This document shows, piece by piece, positions 18,982-29,408 of a stretch of 64,000 bases of DNA; positions within the stretch are counted from its first letter, which is position 1; each line of letters opens with the position of its first letter. The notes beneath the pieces were generated by a model. It saw nothing but the letters and a program-made list of their open reading frames with translations, ran no database searches and was not told where the DNA came from. Source of the stretch: Rheinheimera aquimaris (GTDB taxonomy: Bacteria > Pseudomonadota > Gammaproteobacteria > Enterobacterales > Alteromonadaceae); contig NZ_JAJAVQ010000004.1 of the NCBI RefSeq assembly GCF_020531985.1, positions 62,001 to 126,000 on the forward strand, given 5' to 3'. Position numbers and translations under genes: made by a program.

Positions 18982-21900
18982 TTAATAGTTAAGCAGTGAA
19001 AACCGCTGCAAGCGTGGTTTTAACCATTGCACCGCATCATCAACACAGCTGTATACCACCGGTATGACCAGTAAACTAAGAAACGTAGAGGTGATAAGTC
19101 CACCAATGACAACGATGGCCATTGGTGCACGGAAACTCGGATCGCCGCCAATACCCAACGCGATAGGCAGCATGCCAGCCCCCATAGCCAGCGTTGTCAT
19201 GACTATCGGCCGCGCCCGTTTGCGACAGGCATCTATAATGGCATCCCAGCGTTCTAGCTGATGTTCACGTCTGGCAATAATGATGTAATCAATCAGCAGG
19301 ATGGAGTTTTTGGTGGTGATGCCCATCAGCATAATTAAACCAATCATTGCCGGCATGGACAGTGCTGAGTGGGTTAAAAACAGCGCCAGAAACGCGCCGG
19401 GTACAGATAAAATCAGCGCAGTAAGAATGGTAACCGGCTGCACAAAATCTTTTAGCAGCAAAACCAGCACCATATAAATGCAGCATACGCCGGTAAGCAT
19501 TGCTATAGCGAAGCCGCTTGCCAGTTCGCCCATCATTTCAGCGTCGCCCTGTGTGGTTTGCGATACGCCCGGCGGCAAGGTTTTTAAACTGGGCAGCGCC
19601 ATTACGGCTTGTTCTACCACACCTAACGGCAGGGTGTTTAGTTCTACATCAAAATTGATATTGCGCATGCGGTCAAAGCGCGTTATTTCTGTCGGGCCAC
19701 TGCTTATTTCCAGACTGGCGACATTCTCCAGCGCGACCGGGCCATGAGCACCGGGTATTGGCAAGCGTTTAAAGGTGTCAAAATCTTCGCGGGCAATATC
19801 GCTCAGGCGCACCACTACCGGAACCTGACGCTCACTGAGGTTAAGTTTGGCTAAATCCTGTTGATAGTCTCCCGCTGTGGCGATACGTAAAGTGTCGGCA
19901 ATGGCCGCTGCTGTAACACCCAGATCGGCGGCGCGGGCAAAATCCGGTTTGATCAGTAGCTCAGGCCTGACCAGGCTAGCGCTTGACGTAACGGCACCGA
20001 TGCCCGGAATTGCCCTTAACTCCCGCTCAATTTGCAGCGCATGTTGCTGCAGTACGCGGCTGTCTTCGCCGGCCAGCACCAGCCTGTAGTTTTCGCTGTT
20101 GCCCATACCGACTTTAATTCTTGCGCCGGGCAGGGAGCGCAGAATTTCGCGTAGTTGTTGTTCAATGTCTTGCTTATGTACACCAGGCCTTTGCTTGCGA
20201 TGGCTCAGGCTTAGTGTCAACACCGCTGAGCGAACACTGGCTGCTGTGCCGCCCGCGTCATCGGTGTCACCGGCATTACCACTGCCAATAGCGGTATAAA
20301 TTTGTTGTACATGTTCATGCTGTTGCAGCAGTTGGCGTGCCTGTTCAGCCAGTGCCACAGTGTCCTGCAATTTTGTGCCGGGTTGCATAGTCAGCATAAC
20401 CTGGGTCTGCTGGTTATCATCTGCTGGCATAAAGGCGCCGGGCAACGTCATCGCCAGCATTATGCCGGCAAAGAAAAATATTGCAGCCGCCCCCAGCGTT
20501 ATACTTTTGTGCTGTAAGCAGCGACTTGCCAGTTTAAGGTAAGAGCGTATCCAGCCAGGTTCTGGTTTAAGCTGCTGGCTGCTCTGTTGCTTGGGTGAGC
20601 GCAACAGGTAGGCCGCCATCATCGGCGTCAGCAGGCGGGCAACCAGCAAAGAAAACAACACGGCGATGGCTGCAGTCCAGCCAAACTGCACAAAGAATTT
20701 ACCAATGACGCCGCTCATAAAGGCGGTAGGCAGAAAAACTGCGACCAAGGTAAAAGTGGTTGCGACCACGGCCAGACCAATTTCATCGGCAGCTTCCATT
20801 GCTGCCTGAAACGGCGTCTTACCCATTAACAGGTGACGCTCAATATTTTCTATTTCTACAATGGCATCATCTACCAACACGCCAATCACTAAAGACAGTG
20901 ATAACAACGTTACAGTGTTCAGCGAAAAGCCCATCAGGTGCAGCACGAAAAAGGTGGGAATGATAGACAGTGGCAGAGCGACCGCGGAAATGAAAGTGGC
21001 CCGCCAATCGCGCAGAAATAAAAATACGACTATTACCGCCAACAGTGCGCCTTCATACAACAACTGCATGGAGCCGGCGTAGTTCTCTGCTACTGGATCA
21101 ATCAGGTTAAATACTTCGGTTACACTGATATCCGGGTGCTGTGTTTGCAACTGCTGCAGTGCAGTCTGTACTCCCTCGGCCACTTCAAGTTCGCCATAAC
21201 CAACAGCACGGGTTATCTCAAAGCCCACCACCGGCTGGCCATTCAGAAAAGCGGCAGAACGTTGCTCTGCGGTGGTATCGGATACGGTGGCTATGTGATC
21301 CAGCCGGATACGGCGGCCATCCGTTAAACTGATTTCCATGGCGGCGAACTGTTCTGCCGACTGCACGGTAGCTAGGGTGCGGACCGACTGCTCCATACCG
21401 CCAATATGGGCGCGCCCGCCAGCGGCTTCCTGCTGTACTAGGCGTAATTGGCGTGAAATATCAGCTGCTGTGGTGTTGAACGCCAGCAGGTTAGCGAAAT
21501 CCAGTTCGACCCGGATCTCCCGCTGAACACCGCCGACCCGGGTTACCGCGCCGACCCCTTTTACCGCCAGCAGCGCTTTGCTGATGTCGTTGTCGACGAA
21601 CCAGGATAATGACTCGGTATCCATTCTAAAAGAGCTAAGGCTGTATGTCAGAATGGGGGAACCAGATAATTCTTCTTTTTTAATTACCGGATCACGTATG
21701 TCTGTTGGCAGGTCAGAACGAATGCGGGCGACAGCATCTCGCACATCATCAAGGGCTTGTTGTATCGGGCGCTCCAGCCGGAACTCGACTGAAATACTGG
21801 CTTCGCCGTCGCTCAGGTTGCTGTAAAGGTGCTTTACGCCCTGAACTGTGGCCAGAGAACTTTCTATTTTGCGTACGACATCGGTTTCAAGCTGCGACGG

Positions 21901-22071
21901 TGAAGCCCCTGGCAGTTCTACAGTGATGGTAACTGTGGGTAAGTCCAGATCGGGTAAGTCCTGAATTTTCATCGCGCGAAAGCTAAAAATTCCGGAAAAT
22001 GTGAGTAGCACAAACAGTAGGATAGCCGGCGTGGGGTTACGTATAGCCCAGGTAGAGATATTTAAATTCAT
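18982..22071 (-). CDS. RND efflux pump, inner-membrane transporter
   Basis: 1,029 residues, the full AcrB/MdtB-type length. TM1 near 13-33, a large periplasmic loop, the TM4 block with V-D-D-A-I-V-E-I-E-N-I-E-R-H (Asp pair of the proton relay), a repeat half, and the C-terminal I-L-L-I-D-Y-I-I-A-R-R-E block. It works as a proton antiporter with the adjacent adaptor and an outer-membrane TolC-like channel, which is not encoded here. The sequence type is closer to hydrophobe/amphiphile exporters (HAE) than to heavy-metal pumps; the substrate is unknown. It lies 12 bases behind the adaptor gene. GGAG precedes the ATG. Confidence 0.93.
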   Translation of the reverse strand: MNLNISTWAIRNPTPAILLFVLLTFSGIFSFRAMKIQDLPDLDLPTVTITVELPGASPSQLETDVVRKIESSLATVQGVKHLYSNLSDGEASISVEFRLERPIQQALDDVRDAVARIRSDLPTDIRDPVIKKEELSGSPILTYSLSSFRMDTESLSWFVDNDISKALLAVKGVGAVTRVGGVQREIRVELDFANLLAFNTTAADISRQLRLVQQEAAGGRAHIGGMEQSVRTLATVQSAEQFAAMEISLTDGRRIRLDHIATVSDTTAEQRSAAFLNGQPVVGFEITRAVGYGELEVAEGVQTALQQLQTQHPDISVTEVFNLIDPVAENYAGSMQLLYEGALLAVIVVFLFLRDWRATFISAVALPLSIIPTFFVLHLMGFSLNTVTLLSLSLVIGVLVDDAIVEIENIERHLLMGKTPFQAAMEAADEIGLAVVATTFTLVAVFLPTAFMSGVIGKFFVQFGWTAAIAVLFSLLVARLLTPMMAAYLLRSPKQQSSQQLKPEPGWIRSYLKLASRCLQHKSITLGAAAIFFFAGIMLAMTLPGAFMPADDNQQTQVMLTMQPGTKLQDTVALAEQARQLLQQHEHVQQIYTAIGSGNAGDTDDAGGTAASVRSAVLTLSLSHRKQRPGVHKQDIEQQLREILRSLPGARIKVGMGNSENYRLVLAGEDSRVLQQHALQIERELRAIPGIGAVTSSASLVRPELLIKPDFARAADLGVTAAAIADTLRIATAGDYQQDLAKLNLSERQVPVVVRLSDIAREDFDTFKRLPIPGAHGPVALENVASLEISSGPTEITRFDRMRNINFDVELNTLPLGVVEQAVMALPSLKTLPPGVSQTTQGDAEMMGELASGFAIAMLTGVCCIYMVLVLLLKDFVQPVTILTALILSVPGAFLALFLTHSALSMPAMIGLIMLMGITTKNSILLIDYIIIARREHQLERWDAIIDACRKRARPIVMTTLAMGAGMLPIALGIGGDPSFRAPMAIVVIGGLITSTFLSLLVIPVVYSCVDDAVQWLKPRLQRFSLLNY

Positions 22072-22083
22072 TTTGTACTCCGG

Positions 22084-23259
22084 CTACATCGCTTCGTCTG
22101 ATGAAGCGGTTAGCGTCGGCCCGCTCATAATGGGTTTTACAGGCAGTTGTGTGGTGAGCTGGTGGGGAACAACTTTCACCAAATCGCCATCACCGAGAAA
22201 AGCCCCGCCTGTTGCAACTACCTGATCAGCCGGTGTAATGCCGTTGGTAATTTCAACTAAATCAGCTGTGCGACGCCCGGTGCTTACTTTAGTTTGCCTG
22301 ACTCTGCCGTCCGGGCCTGCACGCATTACATAGCTAAAACCATCCCGCAGTTGAATGGCGCTTTGTGGCAGTGTTAGCACCTTCGACGTCCCCAGCTCAA
22401 ACCAGCCACGGGCAAAGCTGCCGGCTTTGGTATTACTGCCTAATGGCAGGTCGACATACACCGTCCCATTACGGCTTTGAATATCCACTACCGGAGCGAC
22501 AATCCGTACAATACCAATAATGGTGCTGCCGCCAAGCGGCGTGATATGCACGCGCTGGCCCGGTTCGAGCTTCGCCAGATCTGCGGCGGCCACTTCTGCC
22601 CGCCATTCCAGCCGGCTGCCCCTGATCAGCCTGAACAGCTCCTGGCCTGCAGGCATTACTGCACCTACTGTGGCAGCTCTGGCTGAAATAATACCGTCAT
22701 CGGGTGAGTACACCTTAGTATGCTCAACACGTAATTGCTGTATATGCACCAAAGCCCGGGCTGACTGCAGCCGGGCCCGGGCCGCTTTTTCAGTAGTGAT
22801 GTACTGCTGGATTTGCTGCGAAGACAAGGCTCCGCTTGCTTGCAGCTCTGCAGTGCGTTTCACATCAGCTGAGGCTTCCGCCAGCAGGGCTTCTGCTTCT
22901 GCCTCTGCTGCCAGGGTTTGAGCCAGATCAGCCTGCACAGTATCTGCATTGAAGCTAGCCAGCAGCTGACCATGCTTGACGCTGTCTCCGACGTTAACCA
23001 GCACTTGATCCAGCTTTAAGCCATTTGTTTCATTGCCGATACTGGCTTCCTGCCAGGCACTGATATTGCCGCTGGCAGATAATATGGCTGGCAACAGTGC
23101 AAGTTGAGGGCTGACGACACTCACGGTCAATGTTGGCCTGGAAGTTGTGAGCACCTTATTTGCCGGTGTGTCAGCATGGTCTGCTGCGATAATGATGCTG
23201 GCCGTGATGGCGACGATCAGTGCAGTACCAAGCAATACAACCTGATGAGACCTTTTCAT
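22084..23259 (-). CDS. RND efflux periplasmic adaptor (membrane fusion protein)
   Basis: 391 residues. An N-terminal hydrophobic segment (7-26) without a lipobox Cys anchors it. The biotinyl-lipoyl halves are around Q-E-A-S-I-G-N-E-T-N-G and V-K-H-G-Q-L-L-A-S-F-N-A-D, flanking an Ala/Glu-rich helical hairpin (about 120-180), followed by the beta-barrel region near G-Q-R-V-H-I-T-P-L. It bridges the RND transporter encoded downstream to an outer-membrane channel. First gene of the pump operon, divergent from mipA and the two-component genes that probably control it. AAGGAAG precedes the ATG. Confidence 0.92.
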   Translation of the reverse strand: MKRSHQVVLLGTALIVAITASIIIAADHADTPANKVLTTSRPTLTVSVVSPQLALLPAILSASGNISAWQEASIGNETNGLKLDQVLVNVGDSVKHGQLLASFNADTVQADLAQTLAAEAEAEALLAEASADVKRTAELQASGALSSQQIQQYITTEKAARARLQSARALVHIQQLRVEHTKVYSPDDGIISARAATVGAVMPAGQELFRLIRGSRLEWRAEVAAADLAKLEPGQRVHITPLGGSTIIGIVRIVAPVVDIQSRNGTVYVDLPLGSNTKAGSFARGWFELGTSKVLTLPQSAIQLRDGFSYVMRAGPDGRVRQTKVSTGRRTADLVEITNGITPADQVVATGGAFLGDGDLVKVVPHQLTTQLPVKPIMSGPTLTASSDEAM

Positions 23260-23365
23260 GTTCTGCTTCCTTAATCTGGTTGTTGCCTCAGGCGGTTGAA
23301 GGGGTGTGAAGTTGGGATATATGCCTGAAACCTGCGTTACTGTCCGGTAGTTTGCCTTTCCGCAA

Positions 23366-23417
23366 ACTTACTGGCGGAAAAACAGTAAAAAAATGTATTG
23401 GTAAGTTTTAGGTAAGT
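23366..23417. promoter_or_regulatory. Candidate OmpR-type response-regulator site between pump and mipA
   Basis: GGTAAGT occurs at 23400-23406 and again at 23411-23417, an 11-base period as bound by OmpR/PhoB-type dimers. An inverted AGTAAGT lies at 23366-23372. The site is about 60 bases before the mipA start and in the shared promoter gap, so it may serve both directions. Predicted binder: the response regulator encoded two genes downstream. Confidence 0.45.
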
Positions 23418-23475
23418 CTGGCAGCGGATGATGAGGATACTTTTTGCTCACTTTTCATCTGACAGGAACTTATCT

Positions 23476-24288
23476 ATGCACTCAATTATCTCAAGCTTGT
23501 TCTGGAAGCCTCAGTTGCCAAAACGCACAGCGGTGTTATTAGTTGCCGGTTTTAGTTTGGTACCGTTAACGGTTACTGCCCAGCAAGCAGATGACAATGC
23601 GTCGTCATGGGGACTAGGCCTGGCGGTGATGACCAGTCAGAAGCCGTATAAGGGAATTGATCGCGATAACAAAGTATTGCCGATACTGAGTTACGAGAAC
23701 CGCTATGTCCGTTTAAGTGGCCCTGAGCTGGCGTTTAAGTTACCAGGCTACCGTTTTAGCGAGTCAAACCGGTTAAACTTCAGTGTAATTACCAAGTATG
23801 ACTTTACGGATTACGAGCAAAGTGATGCACCTGTACTGAATGGCATGCGGGACCGTGACGGTGGCTTCTGGGCCGGGTTTAAGGCAGAGTGGCAAAATGA
23901 TCTGGCAGATATCAGCGGCGAGATCCTGACTGAAGTTGCTGGCGACAGTGAAGGCCATATATTGAATTTTGGTGTTGAGAGAACCTGGCATTTTGCGAAA
24001 CAGTATATGTTTACACCACGGGTTGTGGTGAGTTTACTGGATAAGAAATATGTCGATTACTACTACGGCGTTACAACTGAAGAAGTAACCGCAGACCGGT
24101 CTTATTATAAAGGTGAGGCAGGTGTGAATGTCGAAATGGGAGTACGGGTCGGTTATATGTTTAAGCAAAAGCATTTTATATTCTTTGATGCCAGTGTGAC
24201 GAGTCTGGCAACAGAAATAAAAGACAGTCCCCTGGTTGACCGCTCTACAGAGAACCGGGTGTTTCTTGGTTATATCTACAACTTCTGA
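23476..24288 (+). CDS. MipA/OmpV-family outer-membrane protein
   Basis: 270 residues from the ATG at 23476, chosen because AGGAAC precedes it and the signal peptide (cut near V-T-A-Q at 35-38) then has normal length; an upstream ATG at 23428 is possible. Alternating beta strands and the terminal aromatic residue (Y-I-Y-N-F) fit an outer-membrane barrel. The G-L-G-L-A-V-M-T-S-Q-K-P-Y-K-G start of the mature part is typical of MipA/OmpV proteins. Family members serve as scaffolds or small porins and are often part of two-component regulons for antimicrobials. First gene of an operon with the response regulator and kinase. Confidence 0.85.
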   Translation: MHSIISSLFWKPQLPKRTAVLLVAGFSLVPLTVTAQQADDNASSWGLGLAVMTSQKPYKGIDRDNKVLPILSYENRYVRLSGPELAFKLPGYRFSESNRLNFSVITKYDFTDYEQSDAPVLNGMRDRDGGFWAGFKAEWQNDLADISGEILTEVAGDSEGHILNFGVERTWHFAKQYMFTPRVVVSLLDKKYVDYYYGVTTEEVTADRSYYKGEAGVNVEMGVRVGYMFKQKHFIFFDASVTSLATEIKDSPLVDRSTENRVFLGYIYNF

Positions 24289-24974
24289 TGAATCGTATTT
24301 TGCTACTTGAAGATCATGAACGCTTAGCCCGGCTAATTTGTGAGGGGCTGGCACCTGCCGGCATAGTCGCAGATGTGTTTAGCCGGATAGAGCATGCACT
24401 GGTGGCGTTGCAGCAAGTACCTTATCAGGCATTGGTGATTGATCGTGGTGTACCGGATGGCGATGGCTTATCGCTGCTACGACGGCTGCGCGATGCAGGC
24501 AATACTATACCCTGCCTGGTACTGACTGCTCGCACTGCATTGAATGACCGCGTTGAAGGTCTGGACGCCGGCGCTGATGATTATCTGGCCAAACCTTTTG
24601 CCATGGAAGAAATGGTGGCGCGGGTGCGGGCGCTGCTGCGTCGTCCGGCTGAGGTACGTTCACTTGATCCACAGTGCGGCGATTTAATCTTGCGCCCGTC
24701 AGACAGCCTTATGTGCTGCAACGACAACTGCGAGACGCTGGCGCAGGCAGAGCTGCAAATTATGTTGTTACTGGTACGCAGATGCAATGAATCAGTACGG
24801 CACGGCGCTTTGGAGGCGGCAGGCTGGGGCTTCAGCGACGCGGTGACGCCCAATGCACTGGATGTGGCATTACACCGGTTACGGCGTAAACTGCGGGCTA
24901 TTGGTTCGAAGCAGCAGATAGTGAATATCAGAGGTGTGGGCTATGCGCTTCGTGACAATGCATCTTTTCAATAG
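24288..24974 (+). CDS. OmpR-family response regulator
   Basis: 228 residues: receiver domain with acidic pair E8-D9, phospho-acceptor D52, the Thr in V-L-T-A-R and Lys in L-A-K-P-F, then a winged-helix DNA-binding domain (about 130-222, ending V-N-I-R-G-V-G-Y-A-L-R). The D52 neighbourhood (I-D-R-G-V-P-D-G-D-G) has Arg where most have Leu, a minor variation. The ATG overlaps the mipA stop codon (TGATGA), and the kinase gene overlaps its 3' end, so all three are translationally coupled. Resembles QseB/PmrA-type regulators. The likely target is its own operon and the divergent RND pump. Confidence 0.93.
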   Translation: MNRILLLEDHERLARLICEGLAPAGIVADVFSRIEHALVALQQVPYQALVIDRGVPDGDGLSLLRRLRDAGNTIPCLVLTARTALNDRVEGLDAGADDYLAKPFAMEEMVARVRALLRRPAEVRSLDPQCGDLILRPSDSLMCCNDNCETLAQAELQIMLLLVRRCNESVRHGALEAAGWGFSDAVTPNALDVALHRLRRKLRAIGSKQQIVNIRGVGYALRDNASFQ

Positions 24975-26310
24975 TTTGCGACTGCAGGTATTACTGTCGT
25001 ATCTCGGCGGCATGGTCCTGAGTGTAATATTGCTGATGTTGGCTACCATGATGGTGTTGCAAGATAATACACTTGCCAGAATGGACCTGGCCGATGCGGT
25101 CGCCGGAATAGCTGATGATATCAGGTACGACGACAATGGCACGCCGATTGGCTTTGCTGCAAAAGTAGAGGACGTGACATGGCTGTTTGACAGCGTTTCG
25201 CATGAAACGGCTTACCGGATACTGGATGAGGCAGGTAACGTGGTGTTGCAATCGGGTACCGGCAAGTCTGTCTGGCCAGAGAACGAAGCATCGCTCAATC
25301 TGACGCGTGGCCGGTTTGATTTTGAGTATGATGGAATTACTATGCATGGTGCAACGGAGCCCGTTATACACAATGGTAAAATCTGGTATTTGCAGCTTAC
25401 CGCCAGCACAAGGTTTATGGAGCTTATGCACCGCCATATTGCACTGCCGCTGGTGGGGGCGGGTGTTACGCTGTTTAGCGTAGTGTTGCTGCTCGCTTTT
25501 GGTCTGTTCGCTTATATTACGCTGCGCTATACCCTAAGGCCGCTAAAAGATATATCTCAATCTGCGTCCACTATCTCTCCATATTCTTTGGATGTTCGTT
25601 TGCCAGTTAAAGGTGTACCTACCGAGCTTACACCGTTGGTAAACAGTTTTAATCAGGCGCTTGAGCGGCTTGAGTATGGTTATCGTGTGCAGCAAGAGTT
25701 TTTGGCTACTGCGGCGCATGAGCTAAAAACTCCACTGGCATTAATCCGTGCCCAACTTGAGTTGATGCCAGACACAGAACAGCGTAACTGGCTGCTACAC
25801 GATGTGCGTTATATGTCGCGTCAGGTGCAGCAATTATTATTGCTGGCAGAGGCCAGTGAACGGCTGAACTACAAATTTATAAAGGTTGATGTAACTGAAA
25901 TTGCTGCTGAAGTAGTTGCCTATTTGCAGCGCATGGCGGACAACGAGCAAGTGAAACTGCGTTTAGAGCGGCATATTGCAAGCCTTATATTGCAGGCCGA
26001 TAAGGGGGCTTTATTTACATTACTGAAAAACCTGCTTGAGAACGCCATACAACATTCGCCTGCCGGCTCAGTCGTTTCAGTCGATGTATTTTCAGACAGC
26101 ATTGTTGTACGTGATCATGGGCCAGGCGTGAATGACGCTCAGCTGCTGCAGTTGTTTAAGCGCTTCTGGCGTTCCGAACAAAGACGGGATAGTGGTGCCG
26201 GTCTGGGGCTGACTATTTGCCGCGAAATTGCACTGGCGCACGAGTGGTCGCTTATCGCGAGTAAAATGGAACCAGGATTACAGTTTCGCTTGTCCTTTTC
26301 TCTGGATTAG
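24943..26310 (+). CDS. Sensor histidine kinase partner of the response regulator
   Basis: 455 residues. TM1 (about 10-35), a periplasmic sensor of roughly 130 residues, TM2 (about 165-192), a HAMP-like linker, the H-box with phospho-acceptor H259 (T-A-A-H-E-L-K-T-P-L), N-box N-L-L-E-N-A-I-Q-H-S, and G-boxes D-H-G-P-G-V and G-A-G-L-G-L. It autophosphorylates and passes phosphate to the regulator encoded just before. I start it at 24943, inside the regulator gene, where AGAGG precedes the ATG; ATG at 24934 or 24958 is possible. The signal sensed is not evident. Confidence 0.92.
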   Translation: MRFVTMHLFNSLRLQVLLSYLGGMVLSVILLMLATMMVLQDNTLARMDLADAVAGIADDIRYDDNGTPIGFAAKVEDVTWLFDSVSHETAYRILDEAGNVVLQSGTGKSVWPENEASLNLTRGRFDFEYDGITMHGATEPVIHNGKIWYLQLTASTRFMELMHRHIALPLVGAGVTLFSVVLLLAFGLFAYITLRYTLRPLKDISQSASTISPYSLDVRLPVKGVPTELTPLVNSFNQALERLEYGYRVQQEFLATAAHELKTPLALIRAQLELMPDTEQRNWLLHDVRYMSRQVQQLLLLAEASERLNYKFIKVDVTEIAAEVVAYLQRMADNEQVKLRLERHIASLILQADKGALFTLLKNLLENAIQHSPAGSVVSVDVFSDSIVVRDHGPGVNDAQLLQLFKRFWRSEQRRDSGAGLGLTICREIALAHEWSLIASKMEPGLQFRLSFSLD

Positions 26311-26357: not shown

Positions 26358-27323
26358 TCAGGTGCCCACCACACAATTACGGCCTTTTGACTTTGCCTGA
26401 TACAAAGCTTCATCTGCCCGCTGGATCAGGCTGTTAAGATTATCAGCAGGTTGGCATTGCGCTATGCCAATACTGGCGGTGCAGGCGGGTACTGAAGGGG
26501 CTTGCACTGTATGTTGCTCCAGCACCAGACGGATACGCTCTGCCAGCTCGTAAGCATCATTGAGCTTGGTGTCAGGTAAGACAATAAGGAACTCCTCACC
26601 GCCTATGCGGCCGATAAAGTCGGTTTTTCGTAAAAAAATGCTAAAACTGTCGGCTGCTGTTTTCAGTGTGGTGTCGCCGACCTGATGACCAAAGTTATCA
26701 TTAATACTCTTAAAGTGATCCAGATCCAGCATCATAATACTGAGTGGTGTACTCTGTCGGCTTACCCGCGCTATTTCAACCTCGAGGATACGCATAATTT
26801 CACGCCGGCTAAGTAAGCCCGTCAGCTCGTCTGTTGTTGCCATTTGTTCCAACTGTGCGGTGCGTTTACGTACTTCCGCTTCCAGATGTTGGTTAGCTTC
26901 TGCCAGTTTTCTTTCTGCTTTTACCAGTTCAGCTATAGTTACCTGCATTTGACGTTTACCCGGCAAACTGATGGCCTCGGGCAGCAGGCGCCACAGCATA
27001 ATGGCGGTCATAATGGAGATCACACCGGTCAGGCTTTTAACAATACCGTGAATATAATAGTAACCATGCCATACATTGATAATGCCCAGCAGATGCGTTG
27101 CGCCGCAAAAAAAGATAAAGCCTGCAAACATCAGAAACATACTGCCAAAACGTAAGTCATCGCGGGCACGTACCAGTCGGACCAAAGCGGCTGGTATCAG
27201 CATATAAGCAATAAACGTCAGTGCGTCACCGCCGACATGTAGCATCAGTAAGTCTGGCCGCCATAGCAGGCAGTGGCCATGTGGCATAAAATTGCCGTTA
27301 AATAAGTCGGTTAGAATAGCCAT
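26358..27323 (-). CDS. Diguanylate cyclase with ethylene-receptor-like membrane domain
   Basis: 321 residues. The N-terminal 115 residues are three membrane helices of the plant ethylene-receptor type. D33, Y40, I43, P44, I70, C73 and H77 fall at ETR1 positions 25, 32, 35, 36, 62, 65 and 69, all with an offset of exactly eight. C73 and H77 (C-G-A-T-H-L) are the copper ligands in ETR1. A short coiled coil (130-160) leads to a GGDEF domain with active motif G-G-E-E-F at 241-245 and an inhibitory RxxD site R232-K-T-D235. It should make cyclic di-GMP, possibly in response to a small molecule bound via copper. Single gene, convergent with the kinase gene. Confidence 0.88.
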   Translation of the reverse strand: MAILTDLFNGNFMPHGHCLLWRPDLLMLHVGGDALTFIAYMLIPAALVRLVRARDDLRFGSMFLMFAGFIFFCGATHLLGIINVWHGYYYIHGIVKSLTGVISIMTAIMLWRLLPEAISLPGKRQMQVTIAELVKAERKLAEANQHLEAEVRKRTAQLEQMATTDELTGLLSRREIMRILEVEIARVSRQSTPLSIMMLDLDHFKSINDNFGHQVGDTTLKTAADSFSIFLRKTDFIGRIGGEEFLIVLPDTKLNDAYELAERIRLVLEQHTVQAPSVPACTASIGIAQCQPADNLNSLIQRADEALYQAKSKGRNCVVGT

Positions 27324-27449: not shown

Positions 27450-29408
27450 TCATTCCCAGCGGGCTTCGCCTTCGCTGATATTGAATTCGATTGCCTCGCC
27501 ACTTGCGGTTAGCTGCATAACCTTTTTCGGTGAACCATCTGCATTTAGCTCAACCAGGCCAACACCTGAACGATTAAGCAAGCGCTCACCGGCCTTGGCG
27601 TTATCGGGTTTATGCGGCACAATTTTCATCCGTCGCCGCTTGGTAAACCAGTTTAGTGGTGACCGTGGTGAATATAGCCAGCGGTTTAGCCGGTCGAGCA
27701 CATCCAGTAAGCGCGGCGGAAACTGGTTTTTTAAGCCGCTGCTGGTTATCTGCCAGATATCCGGCCCTTGTTGCTTTGCGCGCAGGTTAACTTCATAGAC
27801 GAAGGAGTAATGTACATCACCGGATAAAATAACAAAGTTCTTCGGTGTTTTCGGGTGGCGAAAAATATTGATAAGGGCATAGGCGGTGCCGCGGTGCGCC
27901 ATCCAGTTTTCAGCATCGACCAGCAGTGGTTTGCCGAAAAAGGTAAACACTTTCTGAATACCTTCAATCAACTTGACGCCGAAAACCGGCGCCGGCGCAA
28001 TCAGCACCACTGCATCATGACCAATAAGATCTTGTTGTAATTCGGTAATGGCTTCCCAATCGAGCAAACCAGAGGGTTTACTAATTGACACCTCTGAGCG
28101 CCAGCGCCGGGTGCGTGTATCCAGTACCAGCAGCGGCGGTTCGGTTGGCCACTGATAGTGCCATTGTTCAAACTTCAGCAAGCGGGTTATAAACTGCTGA
28201 TGCAGATCTGAGCCACTTTGTTGCAGGGCTTGTTCGGCGTTATCCAACATGGCGTTGTCGAAGGTTGCGGGGGTATTACCCCAAGCCTGACACAGCAGAT
28301 AGCTTATCAGCGCATTACCGATAATGCGCCGTGAGAAATCGTGGCTGTAAGCCGTTTGCTCCCATTCTGCCGTCAGATTCCAGTCGTCGGTCACATCGTG
28401 ATCGTCGAATATCATTGCGCTGGGTAAGTGCGCCAGTACGCGTCGCACTTTGCCAAGCCCGCTGGCGAACTGCCGAATGATCTGCTGATGTTCGTCATAG
28501 GTTTGGCTTTGCTCGTCAGTCAGCTCGTTCGCTATTTCCGCCTCTAGCTGTGTCGCATCGTCCAGCCAGCCCGCCGGCGACCATACCAGCAGGTACATAC
28601 CCAGCATTTCAGCCAGGCTCATCAAATGGTTGCGGGCGTTATCCGAGGTGAAAACCGGCTTTTTTGCACCTTTGAAGATCTGCGTAATAACAGCCTGGCT
28701 GCCTTCAGTTTTCGGCAACAGGGTGTCGCGGCGGTAGTAATAAGGTTTGCTGCTGTGCAGTTCTGAAGCCTTTGATACTGCCGAGCAGGGTAAGCTTTCG
28801 TCATTAAAATCGAGTCGTTCTACCAAACGGTGTATGGCTCTTAACATCGGTGCTGCGACATCATCAGCATAAATCTGGTCGCCGGTTAACATTAATAGTG
28901 CCGGCCACTGCTCTATTTTATGTTGCTGCAGATATAAATCTGCCGCCAGCAAGCCGTCATCACTGGGATAATGCGGCTTACGGCAGGAACCATGTAACAA
29001 CCGTTGCAGTTTGGGTAGGAGTATAAAACAAGGATAGCGGTGACCGGGGTACACCAGATCCGGCGCCCAGTGCTGCCAGTCCTGCCAGTTATTCTTGGCA
29101 TCTGCTGCGGCCAGCTTAAGGTCGTAGTCAATACGGCAGCCAAGCGGCAGCGGGTCGGTAACAGGGATATGGATCAACTGCAAAAAAAGCTTACCGGCAC
29201 AGCGGACACTGCGACAGTGCTGGCGCATTTGTCCACTGTCATAATCACGCTGAGCCTTGCCTTCCGGCATAAGCGTTAACTGTAATTGTACCGGCTCGCT
29301 GGTTGCCAGCCACAGTGTGATGCTGTCAGGCGTAACCGCACGTAGTATCGGCCCTGCCAGCACCAGTGGCAGGCTATTAGTTTGCGTTGTTGCTTTTGCA
29401 GTTGCCAC
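27450..29408 (-). CDS. PhoD-like metallophosphatase, cytoplasmic
   Basis: 652 residues. PhoD-family metal motifs in order: G-S-C-R-K-P-H-Y near residue 140, L-T-G-D-Q-I-Y-A-D-D, I-F-D-D-H-D-V-T-D-D-W-N, and L-S-G-D-V-H-Y-S-F. These bind calcium/iron in alkaline phosphatase D relatives and hydrolyse phosphate esters or diesters. Unlike PhoD it has no Tat or Sec signal, so it probably acts inside the cell; the long middle insertion (about 215-300) is also atypical. The ATG lies seven bases past the gorA stop, so the two are one transcript. The substrate is unknown. Confidence 0.8.
   Translation of the reverse strand: MATAKATTQTNSLPLVLAGPILRAVTPDSITLWLATSEPVQLQLTLMPEGKAQRDYDSGQMRQHCRSVRCAGKLFLQLIHIPVTDPLPLGCRIDYDLKLAAADAKNNWQDWQHWAPDLVYPGHRYPCFILLPKLQRLLHGSCRKPHYPSDDGLLAADLYLQQHKIEQWPALLMLTGDQIYADDVAAPMLRAIHRLVERLDFNDESLPCSAVSKASELHSSKPYYYRRDTLLPKTEGSQAVITQIFKGAKKPVFTSDNARNHLMSLAEMLGMYLLVWSPAGWLDDATQLEAEIANELTDEQSQTYDEHQQIIRQFASGLGKVRRVLAHLPSAMIFDDHDVTDDWNLTAEWEQTAYSHDFSRRIIGNALISYLLCQAWGNTPATFDNAMLDNAEQALQQSGSDLHQQFITRLLKFEQWHYQWPTEPPLLVLDTRTRRWRSEVSISKPSGLLDWEAITELQQDLIGHDAVVLIAPAPVFGVKLIEGIQKVFTFFGKPLLVDAENWMAHRGTAYALINIFRHPKTPKNFVILSGDVHYSFVYEVNLRAKQQGPDIWQITSSGLKNQFPPRLLDVLDRLNRWLYSPRSPLNWFTKRRRMKIVPHKPDNAKAGERLLNRSGVGLVELNADGSPKKVMQLTASGEAIEFNISEGEARWE

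Follow-up and report, generated by a model that had tools for sequence, protein, structure and literature searches.

Wherever the ligand of an ethylene receptor has been tested, the output known to us is a histidine kinase or a kinase-like domain. Ethylene-type domains, and a profile for their family, are already known in bacteria, as the preliminary description of the DNA studied here had remarked; AzoEtr1 of Azospirillum brasilense and SynEtr1 (UirS) of Synechocystis are examples. AzoEtr1 joins its membrane domain to PAS and histidine kinase domains and is considered a two-component receptor by its authors (PMC11819568), and its residues 1-130 are reported to bind labelled ethylene saturably (PMC11819568). 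SynEtr1 has a histidine kinase as well as a photoreceptor domain, and its action runs via a response regulator (PMC6682694, PMC5812497). The reports on these two bacterial members describe ethylene binding with altered biofilm or motility (PMC11819568, PMC6682694, PMC5812497), and SynEtr1 affects both (PMC6682694, PMC5812497). One cyanobacterial receptor, GeiEtr2, is placed in a group with a gene predicted to encode a diguanylate cyclase (PMC6682694). How the membrane domain communicates with the cytoplasm is still listed as open by a 2026 review (PMC13012798).

Here we describe a gene that joins such a sensor directly to a diguanylate cyclase domain, in a 64,000-nucleotide stretch of the Rheinheimera aquimaris genome (the whole of the DNA analysed, hereafter the window). 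Its product is probably a one-component ethylene-type receptor whose rate of cyclic di-GMP synthesis changes when ethylene occupies a bound Cu(I), a reading drawn from sequence comparison. The novelty lies in the conserved, direct coupling of a known sensor family to a known enzyme; we found no description of an ETR1_N-GGDEF fusion in the literature searched, the likeliest architecture surveys lying outside that search.

Architecture and distribution of the fusion

The gene is a clean open reading frame on the minus strand, read from an ATG at 27323 to 26358, which rules out a frame or strand error as its explanation (Table 1). ETR1_N (PF25487; 111 bits against a cut-off of 27, E 3.4e-32) and GGDEF (PF00990; 156.5 bits against 23.8, E 6.5e-46) both match far above chance level, and much weaker Pfam matches to the Cas10 palm and to a GdpP-type GGDEF both overlap the GGDEF domain. 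By domain content the product matches the preliminary description of a diguanylate cyclase carrying the membrane domain of an ethylene receptor. GGDEF is the sole output domain recognised by Pfam, with histidine-kinase output absent; this is a departure in output, not in sensor family membership. None of 14 well-known control genomes matched the ETR1_N profile. A search for sigma-70 promoters returned two sites in 1351 bases against 1.7 expected, both within the gene and neither convincing.

Table 1. Coordinates of the fusion gene and its features in the window
Feature	Position	Strand	Basis
Whole gene: ETR1_N, putative signalling helix, GGDEF; 321 aa	26358..27323	-	ORF and Pfam
PHGxCxxW motif, residues 14-21, with C18 ahead of the first membrane helix	27261..27284	-	Conservation
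ETR1_N transmembrane sensor domain, residues 25-120	26964..27251	-	Pfam and AlphaFold2 models
D33 (ETR1 D25)	27225..27227	-	Position relative to ETR1; conservation
Predicted Cu(I) ligands C73 and H77 (ETR1 C65, H69)	27093..27107	-	ETR1/AzoEtr1 alignment; conservation
K96 (ETR1 K91), predicted partner of D33, offset +5	27036..27038	-	AzoEtr1 alignment; conservation
Continuous predicted helix, residues 123-163, sensor-to-enzyme joint, core LEAEVRKRTAQLE	26835..26957	-	AlphaFold2 and motif
GGDEF diguanylate cyclase domain, residues 162-316	26376..26840	-	Pfam and fold matches
Inhibitory I-site RKTD, residues 232-235	26619..26630	-	RxxD motif
Active-site GGEEF, residues 241-245	26589..26603	-	Motif

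AlphaFold2 predicts three membrane-length helices at the N terminus (residues 23-53, 60-85, and 89-119). Mean pLDDT is 86.8 for the full-length model and 90.1 for the sensor alone; the arrangement of sensor and enzyme in the full-length model is unsure, since its pTM is 0.52. The loop between helices 1 and 2 is rich in arginine, which suggests that it is cytoplasmic and would put C18 and the rest of the N terminus on the outer side of the membrane and the enzyme on the inner. No solved structure of the sensor emerged: the comparison by sequence gave one match (E 0.85) and that by fold 61, none of the latter at E 0.001 or better.

ETR1_N exceeded the cut-off in 17 of 31 genomes of the genus and 49 of 196 in the family, and in 12 of 369 and 28 of 398 in the class and phylum samples, with overlap between samples; the source genome encodes a single such protein. 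In all 17 genus members the ETR1_N protein is 321-342 residues long and contains a GGDEF motif. The remainder of the genus comprises 13 genomes with no match and one with a spurious match, and the gene is therefore dispensable. A decayed copy was considered for one member (G002; 22 bits, in-frame stops) and rejected, as tblastn returned only short, chance-level pieces (best E 0.57).

For comparison, 185 loci were read, a part of all matches; 178 yielded the domain and 161 of these domains were distinct. Counted as distinct by their first 140 residues, 24 fusion proteins were recovered, namely the genus set and seven from other genera including Paraglaciecola hydrolytica. The fusion is, then, a conserved family and not a lone oddity. 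In a tree of 103 domains (reduced from 161 by dropping non-GGDEF rows at least 72% identical to a kept row), the 24 fusions form one side of a branch with SH-aLRT 95, just at the starred limit. This topology is consistent with a single fusion event at the origin of the ETR1_N-GGDEF clade; the tree was built by a quick method from 124 columns, and 49 of its 100 inner branches are open. The P. hydrolytica fusion (L079) sits on a longer branch amid those of the window's genus, at an open fork, and was possibly acquired by lateral transfer.

Relatives outside the clade vary in output. Across all proteins compared, output was mostly sorted by motif, with Pfam run on 11; loci taken from genome searches end 1.5 kb beyond the match, so that long proteins there were read in part. 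Seven relatives without GGDEF were given to Pfam: four have histidine-kinase domains, two carry PAS only, and one ETR1_N only. Several ETR1_N proteins of 182-198 residues (L022/L113, L102, L176-L179) are complete and have no recognised output (Pfam on L113 only); perhaps these are receptors that work via a separate partner. Finally, seven Methylophilaceae proteins (L093, L103, L106, L117, L122, L134, and L142) bear GGDEF and EAL motifs, with a PAS domain in L093, the one given to Pfam. Their motifs make them a second case in which an ethylene-type sensor is joined to cyclic di-GMP enzymes, and they resemble the fusion in this respect. They differ from it in possessing EAL, plus PAS as shown for L093, and they lie elsewhere on the tree, in a part where forks are weak.

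Sensor residues and their candidate ligands

All seven residues known for ethylene binding in ETR1 recur here as D33, Y40, I43, P44, I70, C73, and H77, each at the ETR1 number plus eight, with ETR1 numbers as given in the preliminary description, which had reported this constant offset. C65, H69, D25, I35, P36, and I62 are among the residues that ETR1 needs (PMC11819568, PMC6586836), with C65 and H69 discussed for their role in PMC6586836. The same description had the domain aligning to ETR1 without gaps. That is borne out across helices 1 and 2; beyond them it fails, as the lysine matching K91 is K96, at +5. In AzoEtr1, likewise, ETR1 D25, C65, and H69 correspond to D35, C75, and H79 (+10), but K91 corresponds to K98 (+7) (PMC11819568). 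Residues 12-125 of the fusion align with AzoEtr1 14-127 without a gap, at 39% identity over the whole 148-column alignment, and this alignment together with the K91-K98 correspondence identifies K96 as the counterpart of K91. The change from +8 to +5 means that helices 2 and 3 are joined by a loop three residues shorter than that of ETR1.

Overall, AzoEtr1, plant ETR1, and the fusion share the seven binding residues and the lysine, and AzoEtr1 has the same membrane domain; beyond the longer loop, ETR1 is distinguished by its kinase and receiver output, and AzoEtr1 by its PAS and histidine kinase where the fusion has a diguanylate cyclase. Membership of the sensor in the ethylene-receptor transmembrane family, as claimed at the outset, is supported by the profile, the residues, and the direct AzoEtr1 alignment.

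The seven residues, K96, RxxD, and GGEEF are present in all 24 distinct fusions, and the exact seven-residue set occurs in 93 of the 120 proteins classed as other. Both predicted copper ligands are kept in 157 of the 161 distinct domains; the Cys-His pair is missing in four rows, none of them in the fusion clade. Four ETR1_N relatives (L027, L028, L165, and L166) have lost either the copper cysteine or the histidine, and the domain may therefore be reused without copper. Six of the 161 domains lack the lysine; position 33 is occupied in five of these, of which four are without the aspartate, which is absent from four of the 155 domains that have the lysine. This joint loss of the residues matching ETR1 D25 and K91 is a small hint of contact between them.

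That both predicted ligands are among the best-kept residues raises the alternative that Cu(I) occupancy of C73 and H77, and not an alkene, sets cyclase activity. The genome also encodes three Cu-type P-ATPases over the cut-off, a point of limited weight, for this reading and for an ethylene receptor alike, as 13 of the 14 control genomes have one as well. We consider such a copper gauge improbable. Conservation extends beyond the ligands to Y40, I43, P44, and I70, which are needed for ethylene binding; the KD of ETR1 for Cu(I), near 1.3e-15 M, better fits a fixed cofactor (PMC6586836); and the neighbours include no recognised copper gene, families having been checked for 10 proteins.

Ahead of the first membrane helix lies a further conserved motif, in which P14, H15, G16, C18, and W21 are kept in 24 of 24 fusions. 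A single N-terminal cysteine is noted for the cyanobacterial receptors, and SynEtr1 shares it together with the ethylene-type membrane domain (PMC6682694). In plant ETR1, unlike the fusion, where C18 stands alone, cysteines 4 and 6 form inter-chain disulfides (PMC6586836); an inter-chain disulfide through C18 is possible. Oxidation of the N-terminal cysteines of ETR1 has also been discussed in peroxide signalling (PMC3546692), and with C18 invariant in the clade, the stimulus acting via the bound copper could be something other than ethylene: carbon monoxide, another alkene, peroxide, or the redox state of C18 and C73. The record titles of the 14 fusion loci found among the best 80 of 505 places name no plant host, so a plant-derived signal is not a given. 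Such a ligand is nevertheless unlikely in our estimation. The sequence gives no pointer to one while keeping all seven ethylene residues, and ethylene may also come from organic matter in sunlight, in which case a plant is not needed (PMC5812497).

Enzyme half, linker, and constraint

The GGDEF domain contains both GGEEF and the upstream aspartate motif DLDHFK, with the RKTD I-site intact five residues upstream of GGEEF. The preliminary description of an active-type GGEEF cyclase with its inhibitory site in place agrees with these motifs, which are those of a complete diguanylate cyclase. By fold the domain comes closest to GGDEF structures, WspR and PleD among them. The fusion thus resembles other membrane-bound diguanylate cyclases in placing GGEEF and an I-site behind a helical linker, in a WspR/PleD-like fold, and differs from them in a sensor of the copper/ethylene type.

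The linker core follows a pattern like L-E-x-E-V-x-K-R-T-x-Q-L-E in 22 of 24 fusions, and its R-T is seen in the remaining two as well; R154 and T155 do not vary. It resembles the signalling helix (S-helix) described at sensor-enzyme junctions, including those of diguanylate cyclases, with its E-R-T signature (PMC1592074). The linker is gap-free in all 24 proteins, even though the most distant pair falls to 31% identity, and the copper motif stands 172 residues from GGEEF in every one, whereas this spacing is 331 residues in seven of seven Methylophilaceae proteins.

Across the 24 fusions, mean pairwise identity is 0.75 in the membrane helices and 0.61 in both the GGDEF domain and the linker. 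Median dN/dS is 0.057 for the sensor (38 pairs), 0.114 for GGDEF (22 pairs), and 0.158 for the linker (66 pairs), using only those of 276 pairs with dS 0.2-1.5; the comparison of sensor with enzyme is rough because different pairs passed this filter. By these ratios the fusion gene is under purifying selection, and with higher identity and lower dN/dS the sensor appears to be the more constrained half. Residue conservation in 24 of 24 proteins and the fixed spacing to GGEEF support a working sensor that is coupled to the cyclase.

The same data bear on a simpler possibility, that the membrane domain merely holds a constitutive dimer while product inhibition alone regulates the enzyme. Coiled-coil-held GGDEF domains are close structural matches, GCN4-WspR being the first, and the I-site is intact in all 24 fusions, both as an inert anchor would have it. 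An anchor, though, would have no need of all the ligand residues, and every fusion has them; constraint is also stronger on the sensor than on the enzyme, and the spacing from copper motif to GGEEF never varies. We hold this reading to be very improbable.

Proposed signalling and genomic neighbourhood

Returning to a one-component ethylene receptor, we propose that two chains pair as a dimer, each with a Cu(I) ion held by C73 and H77 within the membrane, as one Cu(I) is bound per chain in ETR1 (PMC6586836). Ethylene or a similar small alkene would bind the copper and shift the helices through the D33-K96 contact; helix 3 would relay the movement through the unbroken coiled-coil signalling helix to the pair of GGDEF domains; and their altered pairing would change the rate of cyclic di-GMP synthesis and, with it, the choice between motility and attachment. 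We infer the binding of copper and of ethylene, the dimer, the direction, and the effect on physiology; the case for the ligand is one of homology, at 39-43% identity, and ethylene or another copper ligand may control cyclic di-GMP. We lean, if only slightly, towards the stronger statement that, in a clade of Rheinheimera-like and related Gammaproteobacteria, cyclic di-GMP synthesis is set directly by ethylene at a copper site in the membrane, with no phosphorelay. As to direction, we would guess with modest confidence that ethylene lowers rather than raises enzyme activity, by analogy with plant receptors and with a suggestion made for SynEtr1/UirS (PMC5812497).

If this is correct, the protein, with its 321 residues and an enzyme product as the read-out, would rank with the simplest ethylene receptors, and cyclic di-GMP formed per minute would be a direct assay of signalling from membrane to cytoplasm. 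A plant hormone and environmental gas would also be linked to the control of bacterial biofilms, with ethylene from plants or sunlit organic matter as a direct cue for attachment; a gas sensor of the plant-hormone type may thus directly influence whether a bacterium swims or settles. GGDEF is matched 56 times in the genome, with two or more of these matches being fragments of a single frame, and one cyclase may therefore matter little.

No gene is common to all 14 compared fusion loci (L066-L079), and an operon partner was rejected as neighbours vary across species. None of the 14 has a conserved neighbour tying the fusion to ethylene, plants, or copper. With no constant neighbour the gene looks self-contained, as expected of a one-component receptor. 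In three Arsukibacterium loci (L068, L070, and L072) the fusion follows a cyclase, a TonB receptor, and a YfiR-like protein, at about 1.1-4.9 kb of the locus, surroundings that by gene content are a cyclic di-GMP neighbourhood; the cyclase of L068, the only one of these given to Pfam, is CHASE8-HAMP-GGDEF. The fusion stands beside an anti-sigma factor (Pfam on L067) and an apparent sigma factor in two loci, with the PhoD-like gene of the window in one, and with other neighbours in two. In six loci the RND pump of the window's cluster lies within 5 kb, at 84-89% identity.

In the window itself this is a divergent cluster (18982-26310), with the RND pump and a membrane fusion protein on the minus strand; the plus-strand genes encode MipA, a response regulator whose C-terminal part is a DNA-binding domain, and a HAMP histidine kinase. 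The reading frames of MipA and the response regulator touch. On the other side, a PhoD-like phosphatase gene (27450-29408) lies on the same strand as the fusion gene, 126 bases upstream, and its Pfam match is short, covering residues 319-360 only.
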